A stretch of DNA of 64,000 nucleotides from Roseateles oligotrophus (GTDB lineage: Bacteria > Pseudomonadota > Gammaproteobacteria > Burkholderiales > Burkholderiaceae_C), in assembly GCF_014204525.1 (NCBI RefSeq), contig NZ_JACHLP010000005.1, positions 342,326 to 406,325 of the forward strand, written 5' to 3'. Under the pieces are notes generated by a model. The model was not told where the DNA came from. It was given only the letters and a program-made list of their open reading frames with translations, and did not search any database. A program made the position numbers and the translations under genes. Shown in pieces: positions 9,271-64,000 of this stretch; position 1 is the stretch's first letter, and each line of letters begins with the position of its first letter.

Positions 9271-12602
<3,332 letters not shown>

Positions 12603-52691: not shown

Positions 52692-53996
52692 ATGGCCTCG
52701 GTCGATCGTCACCAGAGGTTCTGTACGGAGGACTTCAAGGTGGCAAAGAGAGGCAAGAACCTTCTGACACCAGTGCAGATCCAGCACTGGATTCGCGCTC
52801 GCCAACCCATCGCGCGAACTGACGGCGACGGACTCACCTTCACGCTCTCGGCAGCAGGCACCGCCACCTGGGTTCTCCGCTATCAGTTCGGCGGACGGGC
52901 TCGCGAGCTAACGCTCGGTAACTATCCCGACATCAGCCTTCCAACCGCCCGTCAATTGGCGCGGGAGAAGCGCGTCGAAATCGACAAGGGCGGCGACCCA
53001 GCCATCACCAAGAAACAGGAGAAGGTCCGCGTTCGGGCGACTTGGAGCGTTCGCGAGTTGGCTGTGGACTACCGGGAAAAGATCGTTGCAGCATTGGCGG
53101 AGAGCACCCAAGAGGCCCGCAACGCAGATCTCGACCAAGTCATCATCCCGAAACTCGGTGCGATGCTGGTTACCAGCGTGACGTCAGCAGACATCGTGGG
53201 CTTGATCGCCGACTCGGGGCGCACCTGGACGATGTGCAAACGGCTACGCTCGACCTGCAATCGGCTGTTCGCTCATGCACTAGGGAAGCGGCTGATTCAC
53301 ATCAACCCTACAGTAGGCATCGATTTGGTCTCCGTCATTGGTCAGCGCCCGCCCGTGCGCCGCAGGCTGATGTTGTCCGAAACCGAGTTGAGAACCCTGC
53401 TGCCCGACATCAAGTCGATTGGCGCAGAGAACGCTCTGGCCTTCAGAATCTTGCTTGCGACGTGCGTACGGACGATCGAGCTCGTCAAAGCGCAGTGGGT
53501 CAACGTGGACCTGGAAAAGGGCATCTGGATTGTCACTGAGGACACGGTAAAGACTCGGCGCGGCTACGTGGTTCCCCTTTGCCCGACGGTGGTGTCGTGG
53601 TTCCGCGAATTGAAGACGTGCGCGGGAGACTCGCGCTGGGTACTCCCCGCTCGTCGTGGTCACCGACGAGCCAGGCTCGGTGGCGATACGCACGTCGGCA
53701 ACAGCACTCTCTGGGCGGCCTTGACCCGCAGATTCGAAAGAGGCGGACTGGACATACGCCGGTTTACGCCGCACGACACCCGGAGCACCGCGAAATCGCA
53801 CATGAAGGCGATGGGGGTGTCCAACGAGGTCTCCGAGAGAGCACTGAACCATGTGCTGAAGGGCATGGAAGAGATCTATGACCAGTACGACTACCTCCCA
53901 GAACGGCAGGCTGCGCTCGAGTTGTGGGCTGCGTTCCTTGTGGCATGCGAACAAGGTCTACCCTGGACAGTTGTCCCCCTTCGGCGCGTTGCTTGA
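52692..53996 (+). CDS. P4-type tyrosine integrase of the island
   Basis: A 434-aa site-specific recombinase. It has a DUF4102-type N-terminal domain (DGLTFTLSAAGTATWVLRYQFGGRARELTLGNYPDISLPTARQLA, then KGGDPAITKK), a core-binding part and a catalytic domain. Catalytic residues are Arg in LATCVRTIELVKAQW, His-x-x-Arg in TPHDTRSTAKSHM, a later His in RALNHVLKG and Tyr in IYDQYDYLPER. GTG 52740 (VAKRGKNLLTP) is an alternative, more family-like start. It lies at the left end of the island and points inwards. Confidence 0.92.
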   Translation: MASVDRHQRFCTEDFKVAKRGKNLLTPVQIQHWIRARQPIARTDGDGLTFTLSAAGTATWVLRYQFGGRARELTLGNYPDISLPTARQLAREKRVEIDKGGDPAITKKQEKVRVRATWSVRELAVDYREKIVAALAESTQEARNADLDQVIIPKLGAMLVTSVTSADIVGLIADSGRTWTMCKRLRSTCNRLFAHALGKRLIHINPTVGIDLVSVIGQRPPVRRRLMLSETELRTLLPDIKSIGAENALAFRILLATCVRTIELVKAQWVNVDLEKGIWIVTEDTVKTRRGYVVPLCPTVVSWFRELKTCAGDSRWVLPARRGHRRARLGGDTHVGNSTLWAALTRRFERGGLDIRRFTPHDTRSTAKSHMKAMGVSNEVSERALNHVLKGMEEIYDQYDYLPERQAALELWAAFLVACEQGLPWTVVPLRRVA

Positions 53997-56566: not shown

Positions 56567-56869
56567 TCACTTCTCAAGGGGCGCGCCAAAGACGTCGGCC
56601 GCCGCCGGCATCTCGAAGGCGGCTCCGGACGGTCCGCCTGCGACAGCACTCACGACTGGTGGCACAGACGCCAGCCGCGCGACCACCGCGCCTGCGCCCG
56701 CGCTGAACTGCCCAAGCACCGCCTCATGCGCCAACAGGCGCAGGCGGTTAATGCGCTTGGTGCCTTTCTTGAAGCGGATCAGGTCGTCGTAAAGCCGCGG
56801 ATCGTCTTCCCGATCCAGCTCGAACAGCATCCGGATCGTCTCCAGCTTGGGGCTCACGGCATCGTCCAT
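56567..56869 (-). CDS. Small partner protein of the ParM-like gene
   Basis: A 100-aa protein, MDDAVSPKLETIRMLFELDREDD, with ELDREDDPRLYDDLIRFKKGTKRINRLRLLAHEAVLG and an Ala/Val-rich C-terminal half. Its ATG overlaps the stop of the actin-like gene (TGATG), so the two are made together. In ParM-type plasmid systems the second gene encodes the DNA-binding adaptor (ParR/StbB). This protein is the right size and place for that but lacks an obvious ribbon-helix-helix; the role is an inference. Confidence 0.55.
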   Translation of the reverse strand: MDDAVSPKLETIRMLFELDREDDPRLYDDLIRFKKGTKRINRLRLLAHEAVLGQFSAGAGAVVARLASVPPVVSAVAGGPSGAAFEMPAAADVFGAPLEK

Positions 56870-57897
56870 CACACACCTCCTTGAGAAGCAGTGGCGGCGA
56901 CCCCGAAGAGTTTGGGCGCGTGATTCATGCCGGCAATCTGGAACCCGCGAACGTTGGCATGCAAGGGATCCTTGACCTCCAGGATCTTGTGCTTCGGGAA
57001 GGCTTCCTTCACCGCCTTCTTGAACAAGTAGGCGCCCCCGCCCACCAGGATGATGTTCTGGAAGCTGTAGCTCGCGTCGATCCAACGCAGCATCGATGCG
57101 ACGGCCTGCTGGGCGATCGAGTGGGCCATGGGCATGGCCCGGGAGATGTCGTACGGCTTCTGGTAGATCACCGGATTCTTCCCCGTGCGCAGGGCCAGGT
57201 CGATGGCTTCGATGTCGCTGTAGGGCGTACCGATGTCGTGGCCGATCTCCGCGGCAATCGCCTGCAGGATGTCGAAGACGCCCCGGTTCACCGAGTGGCT
57301 CTTGGCTTGCACCAGGCGCATGCCCCGCGCGACCAGCCAGTCGAAGGTCCGCGACCCCGGATCGAGGATCAGGCTCTGCTCCCGCTCGATGGCGCCGCTC
57401 TTCCCGTGCTGGACGGCGAAGTCCACCAGGGCACCCTGCGGTTGCGCGACCGCCAGGGCCTTGCGGACCACCACGGTCTTGCCATTGCCGATGTCGTGCG
57501 TTCCGGTCACCGCCTTCTCGAGCGCAGCCTTCTTGGCGGTCAGCGCCGCCACCGGCAGCCCCACGACCAGCAGGTCGATCGATGGCTGCTTCATCAGCGC
57601 GAGCGCTCCTCGCAGAAGCGCCATGTACTCGGGCGTTTCCGTGTAGCGGTCATGCATCTGGGTCGCACGAAAGGTGTCTGCCGCCAGTTCGACTTCCGGC
57701 CCCACCTCGTAGAAGAGGCCATTGATCGGGACCGCCACCGTCTTGCGCCGTTCGTAGCCCGGCTGGACGGATGGCTCGCGCATGCTCGGATAGGCGACCG
57801 ACGGGAAGCTGGCGCAGCGAATTTCGTTGCCGGACACGCTGGTGACGTACTTGGTGTTACCGAAGCCGACGTCGACGGCTCTGACGACAAAGTCCAT
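56869..57897 (-). CDS. ParM/StbA-like actin homologue (PRTRC protein D type)
   Basis: A 342-aa actin-like ATPase, the motor of type II plasmid partitioning. Nucleotide-binding motifs are visible: phosphate 1 in VRAVDVGFGNTKYV, phosphate 2 in SLILDPGSRTFDWLV, and the adenosine motif in NIILVGGGAYLFKKAVKEAF. The PRTRC cassette described in TIGRFAMs includes a member of this type (protein D), fitting the PRTRC genes to the right. Start ATG 57897. A gene-free region lies directly upstream and may hold the centromere-like site such systems need. Confidence 0.85.
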   Translation of the reverse strand: MDFVVRAVDVGFGNTKYVTSVSGNEIRCASFPSVAYPSMREPSVQPGYERRKTVAVPINGLFYEVGPEVELAADTFRATQMHDRYTETPEYMALLRGALALMKQPSIDLLVVGLPVAALTAKKAALEKAVTGTHDIGNGKTVVVRKALAVAQPQGALVDFAVQHGKSGAIEREQSLILDPGSRTFDWLVARGMRLVQAKSHSVNRGVFDILQAIAAEIGHDIGTPYSDIEAIDLALRTGKNPVIYQKPYDISRAMPMAHSIAQQAVASMLRWIDASYSFQNIILVGGGAYLFKKAVKEAFPKHKILEVKDPLHANVRGFQIAGMNHAPKLFGVAATASQGGV

Positions 57898-59100
57898 GAA
57901 GAGCTCCTATGTGGGTTCGAGACTGGCCAGCATCGGTTCAGCGATGCCGGCGTTCCACACGGAAATCGCGGGGGAAAGCTCCGTTCTCGCAATCAGCTCG
58001 GACTGTGCTCGCAACCGGTTCGGGTTGAGCCTCAGCCCCAGTCGAACGCATCCGACCGTGCAGTCCCACGGGCTCCGTGTCGGACTACGGTCTCATTGGA
58101 GTTGTCGTGGTCAAGACCGCATTTTCAGCGGCGAGGCGGCCACGTCCGGCCGCAGAGCCTCGAAACCCTCACGGTGGCAACCAGAGGCCAGGCAAAGCGA
58201 TGTCAAGCCCTTGCGCCACCTTGATCAGGCGGTCTTTCGAAAAATAAGCGCCCCTCACGTTGCAATTTCAAGCGCCACCCGCAAACCCGGCTGTTTCGGC
58301 GCGAAGTGGGTGGTTGGGAAGTGGCCGCCGTTGACGCGAGCGGGGCCAGGGTGTGAACTACAGGCTCCCGAGGCCTCCTGGCCTGCTCCATCGCGGAGCG
58401 AAAGGCGTTGCGGTCGTTACCCGCCTCTTCAAGTCCCGACCTCCGAGTCGGGCTCGGCATGGTCCCTTGAGTCCACGCCCGAAGCAGTTCAACCCGTAGA
58501 GCAACGCATGGCATTGCTGGCAGTCGTCTGCCAGACGTTCCCCGAGAACGAGCCCTGCATTCGAGCAGTTCACCCGGCCGGCACCCGATGCCGCGCCACT
58601 GTTCCCGTCATCCCTTCGAGCATGCGCACTTCGCGCAGCACACGGCTGTGTTGATCCCTCGTTGGATTCCCCGTGTGCCCCCGCTCGTGAACCTGACACC
58701 GCCCTGGACTTTCGGTCAGGGGTGGACCTCATGCAGGTGGATGGCGCTACGTACCGAGGACTGATCCCCCAGTGGCGCTCAAGGCAAGACCTTCGCGCTG
58801 ATGTTGCCCGTGCCCCCTGAGGCCGGACCTCATCCCAACCCCCGACGAACGCAGAAATGCGGATGCGGGACGGATCACCGTGTTCATTTTTAAGACTGAC
58901 CGAGCCGGAGCGCCGATTGCGCTGACCGGCAAACCCTTGAGGTAGGCGTGGCGTGCTCGTGGCCGCACATCCCGCCCATGGCAGTTGACCACGCATCGCC
59001 AGCGCAACGGAATCCGCGCGGGCGATGAGCGAACGGATTCCTCCCCATTTGCGCTGTGCGCCGCCGGGACGGCACACGGCTCCTTCACCGGAGAATTGCC
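57898..59100. other. Gene-free structured stretch between ParM-like gene and recombinase (1.2 kb)
   Basis: I find no convincing protein gene on either strand. Several hairpins are visible. A 10-bp stem with a 2-base bulge lies at 58062-58086. AGGCC-TCCT-GGCCT is near 58370. CCCGAC and GTCGGG pair at 58435-58452. A 7-bp stem CTGGCAG-TCGT-CTGCCAG is at 58517-58534. The place, between a partition motor and a recombinase, suits a centromere, an origin, an attachment site or a structured RNA. Which one cannot be told from sequence alone. Confidence 0.5.
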
Positions 59101-60300
59101 ATGTCCAGTTTCAATGCACACCACGCCCCCCGCCGCGTTCAGGGTTCCCCCGGCGCGTGGCGCGATGCCCACCACCAGCCGCCACGCCGCCAGGAACAGG
59201 CCGCGCGAACGCCCGCCGAGATCCTCCAACGCCATCGGCCGGGACGGACCGACCCGCTGCGGGTGCTCGATCTGCTGATCGAGTTGTTCAACGCGGAACA
59301 CACGGCGCTGGAAAAAACCGTGTCGCACAAGACGCGGCAGGAACGCGCCGACTTCCTGCGCCGCTTCTTCCGCGACCTCAGGAACAAGGCCAACTTCGCC
59401 ACCGTGCCCGATCCACGCAACCTGGGTGACCGCCATGTCCGGGCGATGGTCGAGGTCTGGCAGCGGGAAAGGCTCGCCCCCGCCACCATCCAGACCTACC
59501 TCAGCTTCCTGCGTGGCCTTGCCCGCTGGCTGGGCAAGCCGGGTTTCATCCGCAAGCCGGCCTACTACGGCCTGGCGCCGGCCGAGTATCAGCGCCATGA
59601 GTATGCGCAACGTGACAGGAGCTGGACCGCTGCCGGGATCGACATCGACGCACTGGTCGAGCGGGTCAGCGCGTATGACCGCTACGTCGGTGCGTCGCTG
59701 CGCCTGATCCGCGCATTCGGCCTGCGCCGCAAGGAATCGGTGATGTTCCGCCCCCACCTTGGCGTGGTGCCGTTCGAAGCCACCGGGCTCCCGACCGAAG
59801 AAAGACAGGCCGAGCACTATGTGCGGATCAAGGAAGGAGCGAAGGGGGGAAGGCTGCGTTTCGTTCCGGTGGACACCGAGCAGCGCATTGCGGCACTGGC
59901 GTTCGCCCAGGCGGTCGTCCAGAGCAGCGATGCGCACCTGGGCGACCCTCGGCACAGTCTTAAACGCAATCTGCGGCGTTTCGACTACGTGATGGCTCGA
60001 TTCGGCATCACGGCGGAAGGACTGGGAGCGACGGCGCATGGGCTGCGCCATGAAGCGATGATCGATCACTACAGCGGCAAGGCCGGCGTCGAGCCGCCGG
60101 TGCGCGGTGGCGGTGACGCATCTGACGAGGTGGACGCGGCTGCGCGCCTCTCGGTCGCCCGCCTGGCCGGGCACAACCGGGTCAGGGCGTCTGGCGCCTA
60201 TTTAGGTGGGCTACTGGCGCAGCGAGCGGCGCCGAGGTCACAGACGCAGGGCAAGATGCCCGGCGCATCCGGTGACGAAGGGCTGCCCGAGGAGCGTTGA
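59101..60300 (+). CDS. Tyrosine recombinase (integrase) of the PRTRC region
   Basis: A 399-aa site-specific recombinase of a type often found in integrative elements. The N-terminal ~100 residues are basic. The core-binding domain follows (RAMVEVWQRERLAPATIQTYLSFLRGLARWLGKPG). In the catalytic domain Arg lies in RAFGLRRKESVMF, His-x-x-Arg in HGLRHEAMIDHY, a later His in RLAGHNRVRASGAYLG and Tyr in the same segment. The start MSSFNAHHAPRRV is chosen at ATG 59101. A terminator follows the stop. This is a second recombinase in the island, unlike the P4-type one at its left end. Confidence 0.88.
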   Translation: MSSFNAHHAPRRVQGSPGAWRDAHHQPPRRQEQAARTPAEILQRHRPGRTDPLRVLDLLIELFNAEHTALEKTVSHKTRQERADFLRRFFRDLRNKANFATVPDPRNLGDRHVRAMVEVWQRERLAPATIQTYLSFLRGLARWLGKPGFIRKPAYYGLAPAEYQRHEYAQRDRSWTAAGIDIDALVERVSAYDRYVGASLRLIRAFGLRRKESVMFRPHLGVVPFEATGLPTEERQAEHYVRIKEGAKGGRLRFVPVDTEQRIAALAFAQAVVQSSDAHLGDPRHSLKRNLRRFDYVMARFGITAEGLGATAHGLRHEAMIDHYSGKAGVEPPVRGGGDASDEVDAAARLSVARLAGHNRVRASGAYLGGLLAQRAAPRSQTQGKMPGASGDEGLPEER

Positions 60301-60847: not shown

Positions 60848-61696
60848 TCATGCCGTGCCCTCCCCTTCGGCCTCCTCCGGTTCCTGCCCCGCTTCTCCGG
60901 CCCCGTGTGCATCGGCCATCACGCAACCGAAACGCGCCCAGGTCTTCGGATCGACCTCGATGGGACCGGCCCGCTTGCTGTCCAGATTGACCACCACGCC
61001 GTGCTGGCCGAGCCGCCCTTTGGAGAACAGTTCGTAGAGCAACTGCGCGGCGAAACGCACGGCCACGTCGTTGATGAACAGCCCTTGAGAAGCGAGCGAC
61101 ATGCGGACAGAGCAGGAGGGGCGGTTGTCGTCGGGGACGCTGGCGTCCAGCAATTCCGGGAACAGTTCGGTGACACAAGGCAGGCGCGGGGCATTTTCGC
61201 CTTTCGTCCGGTGCAGTCCTTGCCCGAGCACCACCTGGGCACTGGCCTCCGTGTTGCCAAGGTCGAGCCAGTAGCGGTAGCGGCCGCCCCCATCGAACAC
61301 CGCTTCGTGCAACGTCCGCCGTGCCGACCGGCTGTCGACGCAACTCACCAGGATGTCGGCGCTCGGCGGCGAATAGCGATTCGGCCGGAATACCTCGTAG
61401 CGCATCGGATGCGCGATCCAGTCCAGTCCGTAGAACTGGTTGAGGCGATGGATGGTCACGATAGCCTTGTGGCGCCCGATGTCGGCACGGCTGTAGAGTT
61501 GCCGGCCCACGTTGGCCTCGCTCACCCGGTCGTCGTCGAAGGCGGCGACGTGCAGGCCGTGGGGGTGGCCGAGGGCCTTTATCGCAATGTCGAGGCGGGC
61601 GAGACAGGCTGCCATCTGGGCGCCGTTGCCGCCCACGCCCACCAGATGAACGCCGACACGACGGTCGAGCAGTTCGGGATCGATCAGGTGTTCCAC
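60848..61696 (-). CDS. PRTRC system ThiF family protein (E1-like)
   Basis: A 282-aa member of the E1/ThiF/MoeB superfamily, which adenylates the C-terminus of a ubiquitin-like protein. The nucleotide loop GVGGNG is at residues 20-25, DDDRVSEANVGRQLYSRADIGRHKA matches the adenylation segment with its Asp and Arg, and SADILVSCVDSRSARRTLHE is the later conserved block. Cys174 (RLPCV) and Cys195 (RPSCS) are candidates for a thioester cysteine. PRTRC is a named set with a ParB-related and a ThiF-related protein. The gene overlaps PRTRC-A by 13 bases. Confidence 0.88.
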   Translation of the reverse strand: MEHLIDPELLDRRVGVHLVGVGGNGAQMAACLARLDIAIKALGHPHGLHVAAFDDDRVSEANVGRQLYSRADIGRHKAIVTIHRLNQFYGLDWIAHPMRYEVFRPNRYSPPSADILVSCVDSRSARRTLHEAVFDGGGRYRYWLDLGNTEASAQVVLGQGLHRTKGENAPRLPCVTELFPELLDASVPDDNRPSCSVRMSLASQGLFINDVAVRFAAQLLYELFSKGRLGQHGVVVNLDSKRAGPIEVDPKTWARFGCVMADAHGAGEAGQEPEEAEGEGTA

Positions 61697-62382
61697 GGTC
61701 CGAGCCTCCTTTCCTGGCAGAAAGCCAGTATCCGGCGCAGGAAGCCCGGTTCAAGGTCGGGATCGTTACCCGTTGGCGCGACAGCGGCCTGCCACGGATG
61801 GGGCAAGGCACGGAAGCGGCCATTGACCACCAGCCGGAACTCGGCGCGGGGCGCGGGGTGATGCAGGTAGCCAAAGACACCGGCCACCTTGATGCCCACA
61901 TCGTCGCGGTCGTCCACAGCGGACCAGAAGGGCCTGCCGTAGCCGTGGGTGTGCAGGTCGACGGCCAGCGTCTCGTCGGCTTCCATCGCCGGGACGCGGT
62001 AGTCGATGCGGTCGGGTGACGCGGCGGCAGGTTCGCACAGCGCCATCCGCAGGCGCCGGGTGCGCCGCGAGTAGATGAGCGCCCCCGCGACTTCGTTGGG
62101 CAGGCCACGCCGCCCTGCTTCGATGAAGTCCTCGATCAGCTTGATCGGCAACACGCCGAAGCCGAACGTGAGCCGCTCGTCGACAGCCCCGTAAGGCAAG
62201 GGAATCGGCAAGGCGGGCGACAGCCGCTGGATGCAATCCAGCCAGTCGAGCTTGGCCTGCACGAACACGCCGTTGGCCGCGAGGATGATCCGCTGCCCGT
62301 TCGCCATGTCGGGCAAAGGGCCGAAGCGCGGGGCGGCGAGTACTGGGCAGGCCGCTTGCAGGGCGAGGTCGCGCACGTCCAT
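61684..62382 (-). CDS. PRTRC system protein A, JAMM metalloprotease
   Basis: A 232-aa protein. The C-terminal part holds a complete JAB/JAMM zinc site: Glu97 in LPNEVAGALIYS, then H144-T-H146, seven residues, S154 and D157 (HTHGYGRPFWSAVD). JAMM enzymes remove ubiquitin-like proteins. The N-terminal ~60 residues are a beta-rich extra domain. Start ATG 62382 overlaps the PRTRC-B stop (TGATG), and the end overlaps the ThiF gene. It belongs to the PRTRC set by neighbours. Confidence 0.87.
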   Translation of the reverse strand: MDVRDLALQAACPVLAAPRFGPLPDMANGQRIILAANGVFVQAKLDWLDCIQRLSPALPIPLPYGAVDERLTFGFGVLPIKLIEDFIEAGRRGLPNEVAGALIYSRRTRRLRMALCEPAAASPDRIDYRVPAMEADETLAVDLHTHGYGRPFWSAVDDRDDVGIKVAGVFGYLHHPAPRAEFRLVVNGRFRALPHPWQAAVAPTGNDPDLEPGFLRRILAFCQERRLGPWNT

Positions 62383-63122
62383 CACGCGCCCTCCTTCATG
62401 CCCAGCAGCCCGCCCAGGGTGGTTTTCACGTCCACCAGCACCCGCTCGGGAAAGCGCCGGAACCGTCCATCGAGCATGTCCTTCCAGAAGGCGTAGGCGC
62501 CGCCCCGGTAGCGGACCAGCTTTCCTGCGCCGTTCGGGTGGGTGAAGTAGGAGCGCATGAAGGCATCGTTCCAGGTGGCGATCTTCTCCACGGTGGTGCC
62601 CTCGGGCACCGGCGCGTTCCCTTGGCAAATACTGCCTTGCGCGTTCACGTTGAAGTACGGGGCCTGAAATAGCGCGGTCGTCGGGGTTGGACGGCGGGCG
62701 CCCTTGACGGCCCACACCTTCCAGACCCGGCTCGACGCCGCGAAGACCAGCCCTGGATGGGCGACGGTTTCGCCGCGCTCAAGACCGCCAAAGCCCTCGG
62801 CATGCTCCCTGTCGACGCGGAATGCGATGTGGCGACGGGCTGGCGGCACCCACCAGACGATCAGGTCGCCCTCCATGTAGAGCACGGTTTCGGGAAGCAA
62901 GCCGCCATGGGCGGCGCGCTTCAGCAGGGCGCGGGCCAGTTCCATCGCCGCGCGGGGCGTCATGGCCTGACCGGCACCGATGACCGGCTCGCCGTCGACT
63001 TCCTCGATGTCGTGGACCGTAGCCAGCGCACTGCCCTGCTGGCCGTCGTAGATCAGGACCGCTCGGCGCAGATGGACGGTGCCGGTAGTGGGCGCCTGGA
63101 TGAAAAACTCGGCTTCGTTCAT
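62382..63122 (-). CDS. PRTRC system protein B (E2-like Cys motif)
   Basis: A 246-aa protein. MNEAEFFIQAPTTGTVHLRRA starts an N-terminal beta-rich part. The C-terminal half has HPGLVFAASSRVWKVWAVKG, TALFQAPYFNVNAQGSICQGN and WNDAFMRSYFTHPNG. The segment NV-x3-G-x-IC (Cys166) is like the active-site segment of ubiquitin-conjugating E2 enzymes, an inference from motif only. ATG 63122 is chosen because GGAGG lies about eight bases upstream; ATG 63137 is possible. It is between PRTRC-F and PRTRC-A, overlapping PRTRC-A. Confidence 0.82.
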   Translation of the reverse strand: MNEAEFFIQAPTTGTVHLRRAVLIYDGQQGSALATVHDIEEVDGEPVIGAGQAMTPRAAMELARALLKRAAHGGLLPETVLYMEGDLIVWWVPPARRHIAFRVDREHAEGFGGLERGETVAHPGLVFAASSRVWKVWAVKGARRPTPTTALFQAPYFNVNAQGSICQGNAPVPEGTTVEKIATWNDAFMRSYFTHPNGAGKLVRYRGGAYAFWKDMLDGRFRRFPERVLVDVKTTLGGLLGMKEGA

Positions 63123-63136
63123 GGTCGTTGCCTCCA

Positions 63137-64000
63137 TCACCAGTCTCCCGCCGAGAGCCGATGAATCAAGGCGTCGATGCGCCGGATGGCCTCGAAGCGA
63201 CCCGCCATCGCCCGCTGCCATGCGGCGAAGGCGCCGGGGTCGCCCAGCTGCACCTGGAACTCCCCCATCGTCTCGCAGTATTCGCCCTGGTGGGCGAGGT
63301 TCAGGAGGTCGTCGTAGATGCGTGTCGTCACGTCGCCCTCGGTCCAGGACAGCACCGCGCCGAAGCCGACGAACTCGCCATCGGTGTCCGGCCGGAAGGT
63401 GTCGTCGAGGTCCAGGCTCGCCAGCGCCAGCGCGTCCTCGGCCACCGCCCTGACGGTCTGGTCGCCGGGGGCGCGCAAACGCTTGACCGCCCGGCGCAGG
63501 AAGCGGGCGCACAGCGGCAGTTCCAGCCCGCGCGGCCAGCGCCGCGCCCAAGCCGGGTAAGCAGCTTCGAGGCTGGCCTTGCTGACCATCTCCTCGCGCA
63601 TCGCTGCGCGGGCCTCCTCGTCCTCACCGCAGTTCATATCGAGGGCAGTTTCCTCGTCGTCCTCGCCGCACCAGTAGAGGTAGGTCACTACGTCGCAGGC
63701 GATGTCCGGGGTGAAGAGCGGATAGACCCAGGCACTCTGGCGGCGCAGCACATGCAGGACCACGGGGCCAAGGCCCGGCACCCGCCGGCTCAGCGCCGCC
63801 AGCCCCTCGCCCACCACCCACTCCTGCTCGTGGTACTCGCCCCAGGAAGCCTCGACGGCCCCCACGTCGAATTGGCGTTTCGGGTGGTTGGTGAAGGTGC
63901 TGTAGCAGTCGCCATCGCGGGAGAGCAGATGCAGGCCGAAGCGGGGGTTCAGGCAGTGCAGCGGCCCGATCTGGCGCTTGATCCAGCGGTCGAGGGCCTG
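63137..64000 (-). CDS. PRTRC system protein F (5' end beyond the window)
   Basis: The C-terminal 287 codons of a soluble protein, reading from the window edge as QALDRWIKRQIGPLHCLNPR, then FTNHPKRQFDVGAVEASWGEYHEQEW, ACDVVTYLYWCGEDDEETALDMN and LSAGDW at the end. Its place directly upstream of PRTRC-B fits PRTRC protein F, as does the D/E-rich WCGEDDEE segment. Function is unknown. The frame is open at base 64000, and the start lies outside. It ends 14 bases before the PRTRC-B start chosen here. Confidence 0.75.
   Translation of the reverse strand, partial: QALDRWIKRQIGPLHCLNPRFGLHLLSRDGDCYSTFTNHPKRQFDVGAVEASWGEYHEQEWVVGEGLAALSRRVPGLGPVVLHVLRRQSAWVYPLFTPDIACDVVTYLYWCGEDDEETALDMNCGEDEEARAAMREEMVSKASLEAAYPAWARRWPRGLELPLCARFLRRAVKRLRAPGDQTVRAVAEDALALASLDLDDTFRPDTDGEFVGFGAVLSWTEGDVTTRIYDDLLNLAHQGEYCETMGEFQVQLGDPGAFAAWQRAMAGRFEAIRRIDALIHRLSAGDW

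Follow-up and report, generated by a model that had tools for sequence, protein, structure and literature searches.

The right-hand end of a 64,000-nucleotide stretch of the Roseateles oligotrophus genome (5.3 Mb), called the window here and covering positions 342326 to 406325 of contig NZ_JACHLP010000005.1, lies within a cassette of PRTRC genes. A preliminary description of this DNA had proposed that the cassette encodes a ubiquitin-type conjugation pathway, the ubiquitin-like protein (Ubl) of which was expected among the PRTRC C or E genes in the right-hand flank. The four adjacent overlapping genes named there (ThiF, JAMM, B, and F) were confirmed: their order on the minus strand is F-B-A-ThiF, and each scores over the curated NCBIfam cut-off. 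The F gene is truncated at the window end; features outside the window are given in contig coordinates.

60848..61696, minus strand: PRTRC ThiF, an E1-like adenylating enzyme (TIGR03736, 4.4e-99; Pfam ThiF, 1.9e-14)
61684..62382, minus strand: PRTRC A, DUF2016 plus a Prok-JAB/JAMM metalloprotease domain (TIGR03735, 7.2e-60; PF09436, PF14464)
62382..63137, minus strand: PRTRC B, E2-like (TIGR03737, 2.7e-77; PF14460 Prok-E2_D, 2.7e-49)
63137..64000, minus strand: PRTRC F (alpha-hel2), truncated at the window end (TIGR03742, 2.1e-82 in the window; PF14456)
Contig 405462-406493, minus strand: the whole PRTRC F gene (TIGR03742, 1.4e-100)
Contig 406490-406924, outside the window: PRTRC_C (Pfam Prok_Ub, 4.4e-20)
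Contig 407012-407497, outside the window: PRTRC_E
Contig 407572 to at most 409581, outside the window: PRTRC ParB

The overall gene layout is [ParB]-E-C(-X)-F-B-A-ThiF-[recombinase, D], X being a short segment or open reading frame (ORF) described below. Translation of PRTRC B may start at the ATG at 63137 or at that at 63122, both of which are possible. PRTRC F is characterized by family matches only (PF14456, "alpha-helical domain 2", and TIGR03742).

Conserved enzymes of the cassette

Conservation was followed in a survey of 177 stretches, labeled with L-numbers, five of which come from or are identical with the window's own locus. The survey comprises eight regions taken from the 292 plasmid records that matched, a single phage record, a few further genomes, 80 loci on genome contigs (kept from at least 349 matches), and 80 IMG/VR loci (kept from 188). 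PRTRC_B was found in 171 loci and ThiF in 175; residue counts refer to the loci that passed a filter on coverage, among them that of the window.

PRTRC ThiF has a single ThiF domain in a Pfam scan and is of the stand-alone E1-like type. It carries a GVGGNG loop and D54, and C195, the candidate thioester cysteine, is conserved together with R65, K77, and D121 in all 172 loci. In the PDB, a profile made from six relatives picks up chains of NEDD8/ubiquitin E1, ThiF, and MoeB. The JAMM site of PRTRC_A consists of E97, H144, H146, and D157, present in 132/132 loci, and S154, present in 131 of these; its DUF2016 part is read here as a JAB-N domain. C195 and the five JAMM residues had been named from the sequence of this one locus; they occur at the positions assigned to them then and are conserved across the survey well beyond chance.

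The motif N-x4-G-x2-C of PRTRC-B corresponds to N162, G167, and C170, with the spacing of classical E2 enzymes. The candidate E2 cysteine, counted as Cys166 in the preliminary description and here, in a reading of 250 residues, as C170, is conserved in homologues (166/166 loci), as are N162 and G172; H199 is present in 162 of the 166. Comparison of the PRTRC-B profile with that of Prok-E2_B gave a nonsignificant p value of 0.086, the best segment being exactly the Cys motif, while control comparisons with ThiF (p 0.31) and C (p 0.35) aligned elsewhere and with lower scores. An AlphaFold2 model based on 66 sequences had a mean predicted local distance difference test score (pLDDT) of 89.1 and a predicted template modeling score (pTM) of 0.73. 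An Atg7-Atg10 entry, Atg10 being an E2-like protein, was found at rank 19 (E 0.98) in the Foldseek PDB list for this model. Two BFVD matches were obtained at E<=0.001, an uncharacterized phage protein and one without a name. The viral BFVD proteins A0A6J5MFC0 and A0A516MLX1 resemble the model (window positions 62385-63134) with an E value of about 1e-6. PRTRC-B is likely to work like an E2. The invariant Cys agrees with the E2-like nature proposed earlier; the UBC fold is not confirmed by the structure and profile searches, and membership of the E2 superfamily rests on the naming in Pfam and on the work of Iyer et al. (2006).

PRTRC_C, the X segment, and the JAMM gene

The Ubl gene expected in the right flank is PRTRC_C (Prok_Ub, 4.4e-20), which makes C the one of the two candidates, C and E, that fits. 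The protein of 144 residues has Gly68 closing the sequence ...AVGTKG, followed by 76 more residues that end in RVLPDSDMLAPLP. One Ubl domain was found. Prok_Ub scored over its cut-off in 48/48 PRTRC_C sequences (listing at E<=1; best 3.9e-29), and K67-G68 was unchanged in all 48 that were aligned; the survey count of PRTRC_C residue conservation covers 69 loci, the coverage filter having dropped the remainder. In an AlphaFold2 model of the L018 copy, which has the identical tail, strands and helices span residues 9-61 in the order beta-beta-helix-beta-beta (beta-grasp), with a pLDDT of about 91 for residues 11-60, followed by a low-confidence linker around Gly68 and by helices at 73-126 (pTM 0.43). 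The nine best Foldseek PDB matches to this model are PB1 or ubiquitin(-like) proteins by title, none of them significant (E>=0.13), with TM scores to the target of 0.26-0.48. The best match in a PDB profile search with PRTRC_C, ribosomal uS19 over 31 residues (0.19), was taken to be a chance match.

The 76-residue, mostly helical segment fused after Gly68 (residues 69-144) is designated X. In other loci, X is as a rule encoded by a small gene of its own immediately behind C. In many relatives C stops at the Gly and is followed by an ORF of about 50-90 residues whose end resembles that of the fused tail (...LPPLP, MPVLP, DLPMIF). Of 158 loci, 125 carry a C-terminal X motif where it would be expected, X being fused in 30 and separate in 95; about 3.6 matches would be expected by chance among the 213 candidate separate ORFs. 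As the motif was shaped after the sequences had been seen, a profile test is the stronger one. The profile was made exclusively from separate copies; it started with four seeds chosen by pattern and position, took in only ORFs at the expected position, and comprised 36 loci at the last inclusion. Searched among 59,638 ORFs, it recovered the fused tails of L026 (3.9e-13), L030 (4.4e-7), and L020-L023 (about 5e-4), the last four being close relatives of the window's PRTRC_C. At E<=1, 68 of the 158 loci were reached (51 separate, 17 fused), and 11 of the 30 fused tails called by the motif were among those found. A match in L079 (9.2e-7), located 737 bases after C and outside the expected position, resembles an X that has been displaced.

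None of eight copies scanned, seven separate X proteins plus the tail of the window's PRTRC_C, had a Pfam match at E<=0.1; in NCBIfam they gave one chance-level match (0.08), far below the cut-off. Over ten overlapping pairs, the ratio of nonsynonymous to synonymous substitution rates (dN/dS) was 0.23-0.72 for the fused tail versus 0.12-0.36 for the Ubl part, constraint being weaker in the tail; in the pair with 0.23, dS is saturated (2.9). These values argue that the fused tail evolves as protein. A second type of C extension, AH[AV]CPLLDEEVAFINALHARY, is distinct from X and occurs in phages (e.g., L107, L108, L134, and L152), several of which also carry a separate X.

The extension was compared with the presence of the JAMM gene in the 157 loci with C, B, and ThiF in view. 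Left out were 16 loci lacking one of these genes in view and three duplicates of the window locus; the left-out loci include an Alteromonas plasmid (L013) without JAMM gene, in which C ends SNG, and a Deinococcus plasmid with neither ThiF nor JAMM gene, in which C ends RKG. C is extended past the Gly, often by 60-100 residues, in 99/125 loci with the JAMM gene versus 0/32 without it (69/91 versus 0/30 after dereplication). Among 19 genomes with a JAMM-less cassette, several of them draft metagenome-assembled genomes, PRTRC_A scored over its cut-off in none (one sub-threshold match), while three out of three controls were positive. L044 lacks the JAMM gene and its C ends at the Gly; its sister group L048, L050, and L051 has the gene, with one or two residues after the Gly. 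As extensions occur only where the JAMM gene is present, PRTRC_A probably matures PRTRC_C. Proteolysis of this kind is known from bacteria: the JAMM protein BilC exposes the C-terminal Gly of BilA (PMC11354881, available excerpts), and the protease QbsD uncaps capped sulfur carriers (PMC6006322, available excerpts).

Plasmids, islands, phages, and the partition genes

The neighboring plasmid-type partition genes pointed out earlier are real: PRTRC_D lies at 56869-57897 in the window, and PRTRC ParB lies outside it. The following features accompany the cassette on its other side.

56869..57897, minus strand: PRTRC D, actin/ParM-like (TIGR03739, 4e-157; ALP_N, MreB-like_C)
59056..60300, plus strand: tyrosine recombinase, encoded between PRTRC_D and ThiF and transcribed toward the cassette (PF12835, PF12834)
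52692-53996: second tyrosine integrase (Arm-DNA-bind_3, Phage_integrase)

The G+C content drops to about 0.57-0.60 at the second integrase, which may be where an integrated island ends; a search of the window between 46000 and 64000 revealed no tRNA gene. Recombinase-related ORFs occur downstream of ThiF in 22 genome loci, as judged by neighbor clustering. A 209-residue ORF just beyond the window, after ParB (L002 11707-12336), gave sub-threshold PARP/ADP-ribosyltransferase matches (0.0035 and 0.032).

The cassette is sporadic. PRTRC_ThiF scored over its cut-off in the genome of the window and in 0/11 other genomes of the genus examined, and PRTRC_B was found in 5/398 genomes of a phylum sample, the window's own included; an identical ThiF (100 %) is encoded on a contig of Thauera phenylacetica B4P. 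PRTRC_B relatives are present in 292 of 72,556 plasmid records and in 2 of 50,697 named phage records. They are thus rare in named phages; one of the two records is the complete Burkholderia phage BgVeeders33, in which E, C, X, F, B, A, and ThiF directly follow one another. All of E, C, B, and ThiF occur in 71 of the 80 kept IMG/VR loci. Of the 81 phage or viral records collected, 45 were tested for a large terminase, and 20 of these had one. Upstream and on the same strand, a repressor-like protein is encoded in 42 loci, one scanned member of which consists of a helix-turn-helix and an S24 peptidase domain; the downstream protein in 25 loci resembles a tyrosine integrase by eye.

These surroundings bear on the alternative that the Ubl system is a partition accessory, modifying ParB or the actin-like D and thereby controlling the segregation of plasmids and islands. 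The name of the cassette and its company in genomes and plasmids fit this idea, ParB lying directly upstream of E in 43/68 genome loci having E (37 called by script and six read from the same output) and upstream in 6/7 plasmid loci with room upstream, with D in 19/79 genome loci. The script undercounts where the E frame overlaps ParB, and eight loci were corrected by hand. In viruses, by contrast, only 2 of the 69 loci whose upstream sequence is long enough have an adjacent ParB, BgVeeders33 has none there, and none of the viral stretches retrieved contained a D gene. As phage copies mostly lack an adjacent ParB, the cassette is not simply a partition accessory, and control of segregation is an improbable explanation of it. 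Because the module lies near a temperate-phage repressor and integrase, mostly without an adjacent ParB, a role in element maintenance or in conflict with rival elements or host defenses is more likely than one in partition alone.

Some variants deserve mention. A ParB-like gene (E 1e-37 to 1e-39) lies just after ThiF in the phage loci L134, L137, L150, L168, and L173, at about 10704-11550, and is unlike the long PRTRC ParB found upstream of E in plasmids and islands. Plasmid pDrdI of Deinococcus wulumuqiensis (L011 7408-15382) has C, an X-like annotated small ORF ending APLLP, and B; no ThiF or JAMM was found in this stretch, in which a UvrD-like helicase follows two genes after B, and this variant may borrow its E1 from elsewhere. 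Bacillus phage vB_BauM_KLEB27-3 (217 kb) encodes a divergent ThiF relative with 27.5 % identity at 167752-168357 and escaped the searches with B and C at the limits set for them. Further hosts of a cassette are Cupriavidus metallidurans CH34, on plasmid pMOL28, and Bacteroides thetaiotaomicron (BT2645-BT2649), whose copy, with E2 and ThiF genes next to each other, probably lacks the JAMM gene.

The proposed pathway and related systems

From the parts of the cassette, the residues that do not vary in them, the fusion of Ubl and X, the occurrence of extensions only together with the JAMM gene, and the phage setting, all of which are visible in the sequences, we infer the catalytic steps, cut site, order of transfer, substrates, and role. 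The cassette would be a protein-modification system of mobile elements that makes its modifier as a Ubl-X precursor matured by PRTRC_A, a reading to which a probability of about two in three is given. PRTRC_C would be made as a precursor in which the Ubl domain (residues 1-68), ending GTKG, is fused to X (residues 69-144). PRTRC_A would cut after Gly68 and release the mature Ubl and X, upon which PRTRC ThiF would adenylate the new C-terminal Gly and hand the modifier to Cys195. PRTRC_B would take it over on Cys166/170 and transfer it to a target protein, from which PRTRC_A may also take it off again.

A predicted ubiquitin-like system of this composition was described by Iyer et al. (2006) as operon class 6d. 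In the excerpts available (PMC1779556), the class consists of a Ubl with a conserved terminal Gly, a JAB protein with JAB-N, an E1-like protein, an alpha-helical protein, and an E2-like protein that has a conserved Cys and a downstream His while lacking the classical His. On its sequence, the assignment of the cassette to class 6d/PRTRC is secure. As the gene set is the same (Ubl, JAB-N/JAB, E1, E2-like, and alpha-helical protein), the interpretation in the preliminary description is an independent rediscovery: the pathway it proposed is supported in part, by the Ubl gene with its Gly and by the invariant Cys; it is not new, and the tie to partition is weakened by the phage copies without ParB. 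The excerpts differ from the present findings in that the Ubl is described as a small stand-alone protein, whereas PRTRC_C of this genome has 76 residues after the Gly. Of the PRTRC relatives, 32/157 lack the JAMM gene. Their description of class 6d mentions no X gene, C-X fusion, ParB linkage, PRTRC, or substrate, and they mention phages for another class only (tail assembly). The X gene, the C-X precursor with its apparent dependence on JAMM, and the phage distribution are additions of the present analysis. Papers using the term PRTRC, in the excerpts available, assign it to partition and do so in a table or a figure legend. A literature search for PRTRC with ubiquitin returned only an unrelated paper on Wnt modeling, and no experiment on class 6d or PRTRC was found in the literature searched.

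Among characterized systems, BilABCD (Bil) is similar in having separate Ubl, E2, JAMM, and E1 genes and a JAMM protein that exposes the terminal Gly of the Ubl; as far as the excerpts go, it differs in that BilA contains a pair of Ubl domains and BilD a pair of adenylation domains, of which the PRTRC cassette has one each (PMC11354881). PADLOC gave weak matches of ThiF to BilD (1.3e-4, over a segment) and to E1-E2 (1e-4); the proteins A, B, C, E, and F had no match there at E<=0.01. The Cap2/Cap3 proteins of type II CBASS, according to the excerpts available, likewise combine E1, E2, and a JAB isopeptidase with a conserved single terminal Gly or Ala on the conjugated protein; in CBASS the conjugated protein is cGAS itself, and a single protein contains both E1 and E2, whereas PRTRC has a dedicated Ubl and separate genes (PMC10097602). 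In this comparison no cGAS was noticed near the PRTRC cassette.

Sulfur-carrier systems offer another precedent. In the excerpts available, QbsE is a Ubl-like carrier with residues past its Gly motif that is uncapped by the protease QbsD and activated by a ThiF-like protein; QbsE caps consist of one or two residues, whereas PRTRC_C extensions often have 60-100 and come with an E2-like partner (PMC6006322). The cassette could accordingly be read as one for sulfur transfer, with PRTRC_C as a carrier like ThiS or QbsE on which ThiF makes a thiocarboxylate, JAMM only uncapping it and B being an acceptor or unrelated. The single-domain ThiF is of the ThiF/MoeB type, uncapping by QbsD is established and fits the C extensions (PMC6006322), and a phosphoadenosine phosphosulfate reductase is annotated about 4.9 kb after ThiF on an Alteromonas mediterranea plasmid (L013 15380-16393). 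Against these points stand the E2-like protein with its invariant Cys (166/166), which accompanies the cassette almost throughout (B in 171 versus ThiF in 175 loci), the C terminus KG instead of GG, and the sporadic, mobile distribution; moreover, no rhodanese or cysteine synthase was annotated in nine stretches read, the gene tables of the plasmids being incomplete. Conjugation is therefore preferred, sulfur transfer being considered unlikely.

A more specific version of the conjugation reading, in which the system belongs not to cells but to mobile elements (plasmids, islands, and temperate phages alike), which use it against rivals or host defenses, and the modifier-X fusion is split by the system's own JAMM protein, is tentative and held to be somewhat doubtful.

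Several results weigh against the proposed conjugation pathway. With the PRTRC-B model, Foldseek found no PDB match at E<=0.001 and the matches listed from BFVD named no UBC; a PDB profile search with PRTRC-B gave no match at E<=10, and the E2-like His (H199) is absent in 4 of the 166 loci. The window's own tail scored 0.061 with the X profile, the best unrelated ORF scoring 0.083, so that its link to X is carried by its close relatives; the profile misses 90/158 loci, including 19 of the 30 fused tails called by the motif. On the tree, the JAMM gene must have changed state at least four times and the extension at least eight times, which are few independent events, and the independent pairs (3-4 on supported branches, four differing in extension and three in JAMM; 4-8 on all branches; none opposite) are too few for significance. 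In 26 JAMM-bearing loci C already ends at the Gly, and the JAMM protein must therefore have another use there. A role in conflict, finally, is suggested by location only.

The missed loci and the few independent events also fit an alternative in which the C extensions and X are unrelated sequence around the overlapping start of F, the link with JAMM reflecting shared ancestry. X is short and divergent, and the chance matches and post hoc shaping of its motif point the same way. This alternative would have to account for the 95 separate and 30 fused copies that match at the expected place, for a profile of separate copies that finds fused tails down to 3.9e-13 among all ORFs searched, and for the codon-level constraint on the tail, and it is regarded as having little probability.

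A precursor of the C-X type has a parallel outside bacteria. In eukaryotic ubiquitin-ribosomal protein fusions, ubiquitin is joined to an unrelated small protein and cut off after its Gly. X is not known to be ribosomal, and no homology to these fusions is claimed. Ubiquitin precursors are mentioned in PMC11354881. If the more specific reading given above is true, PRTRC_C-X would be a bacterial counterpart of ubiquitin-fusion precursors. The phage copies that lack an adjacent ParB suggest, in place of "plasmid partition", a modification system used by viruses and plasmids themselves.

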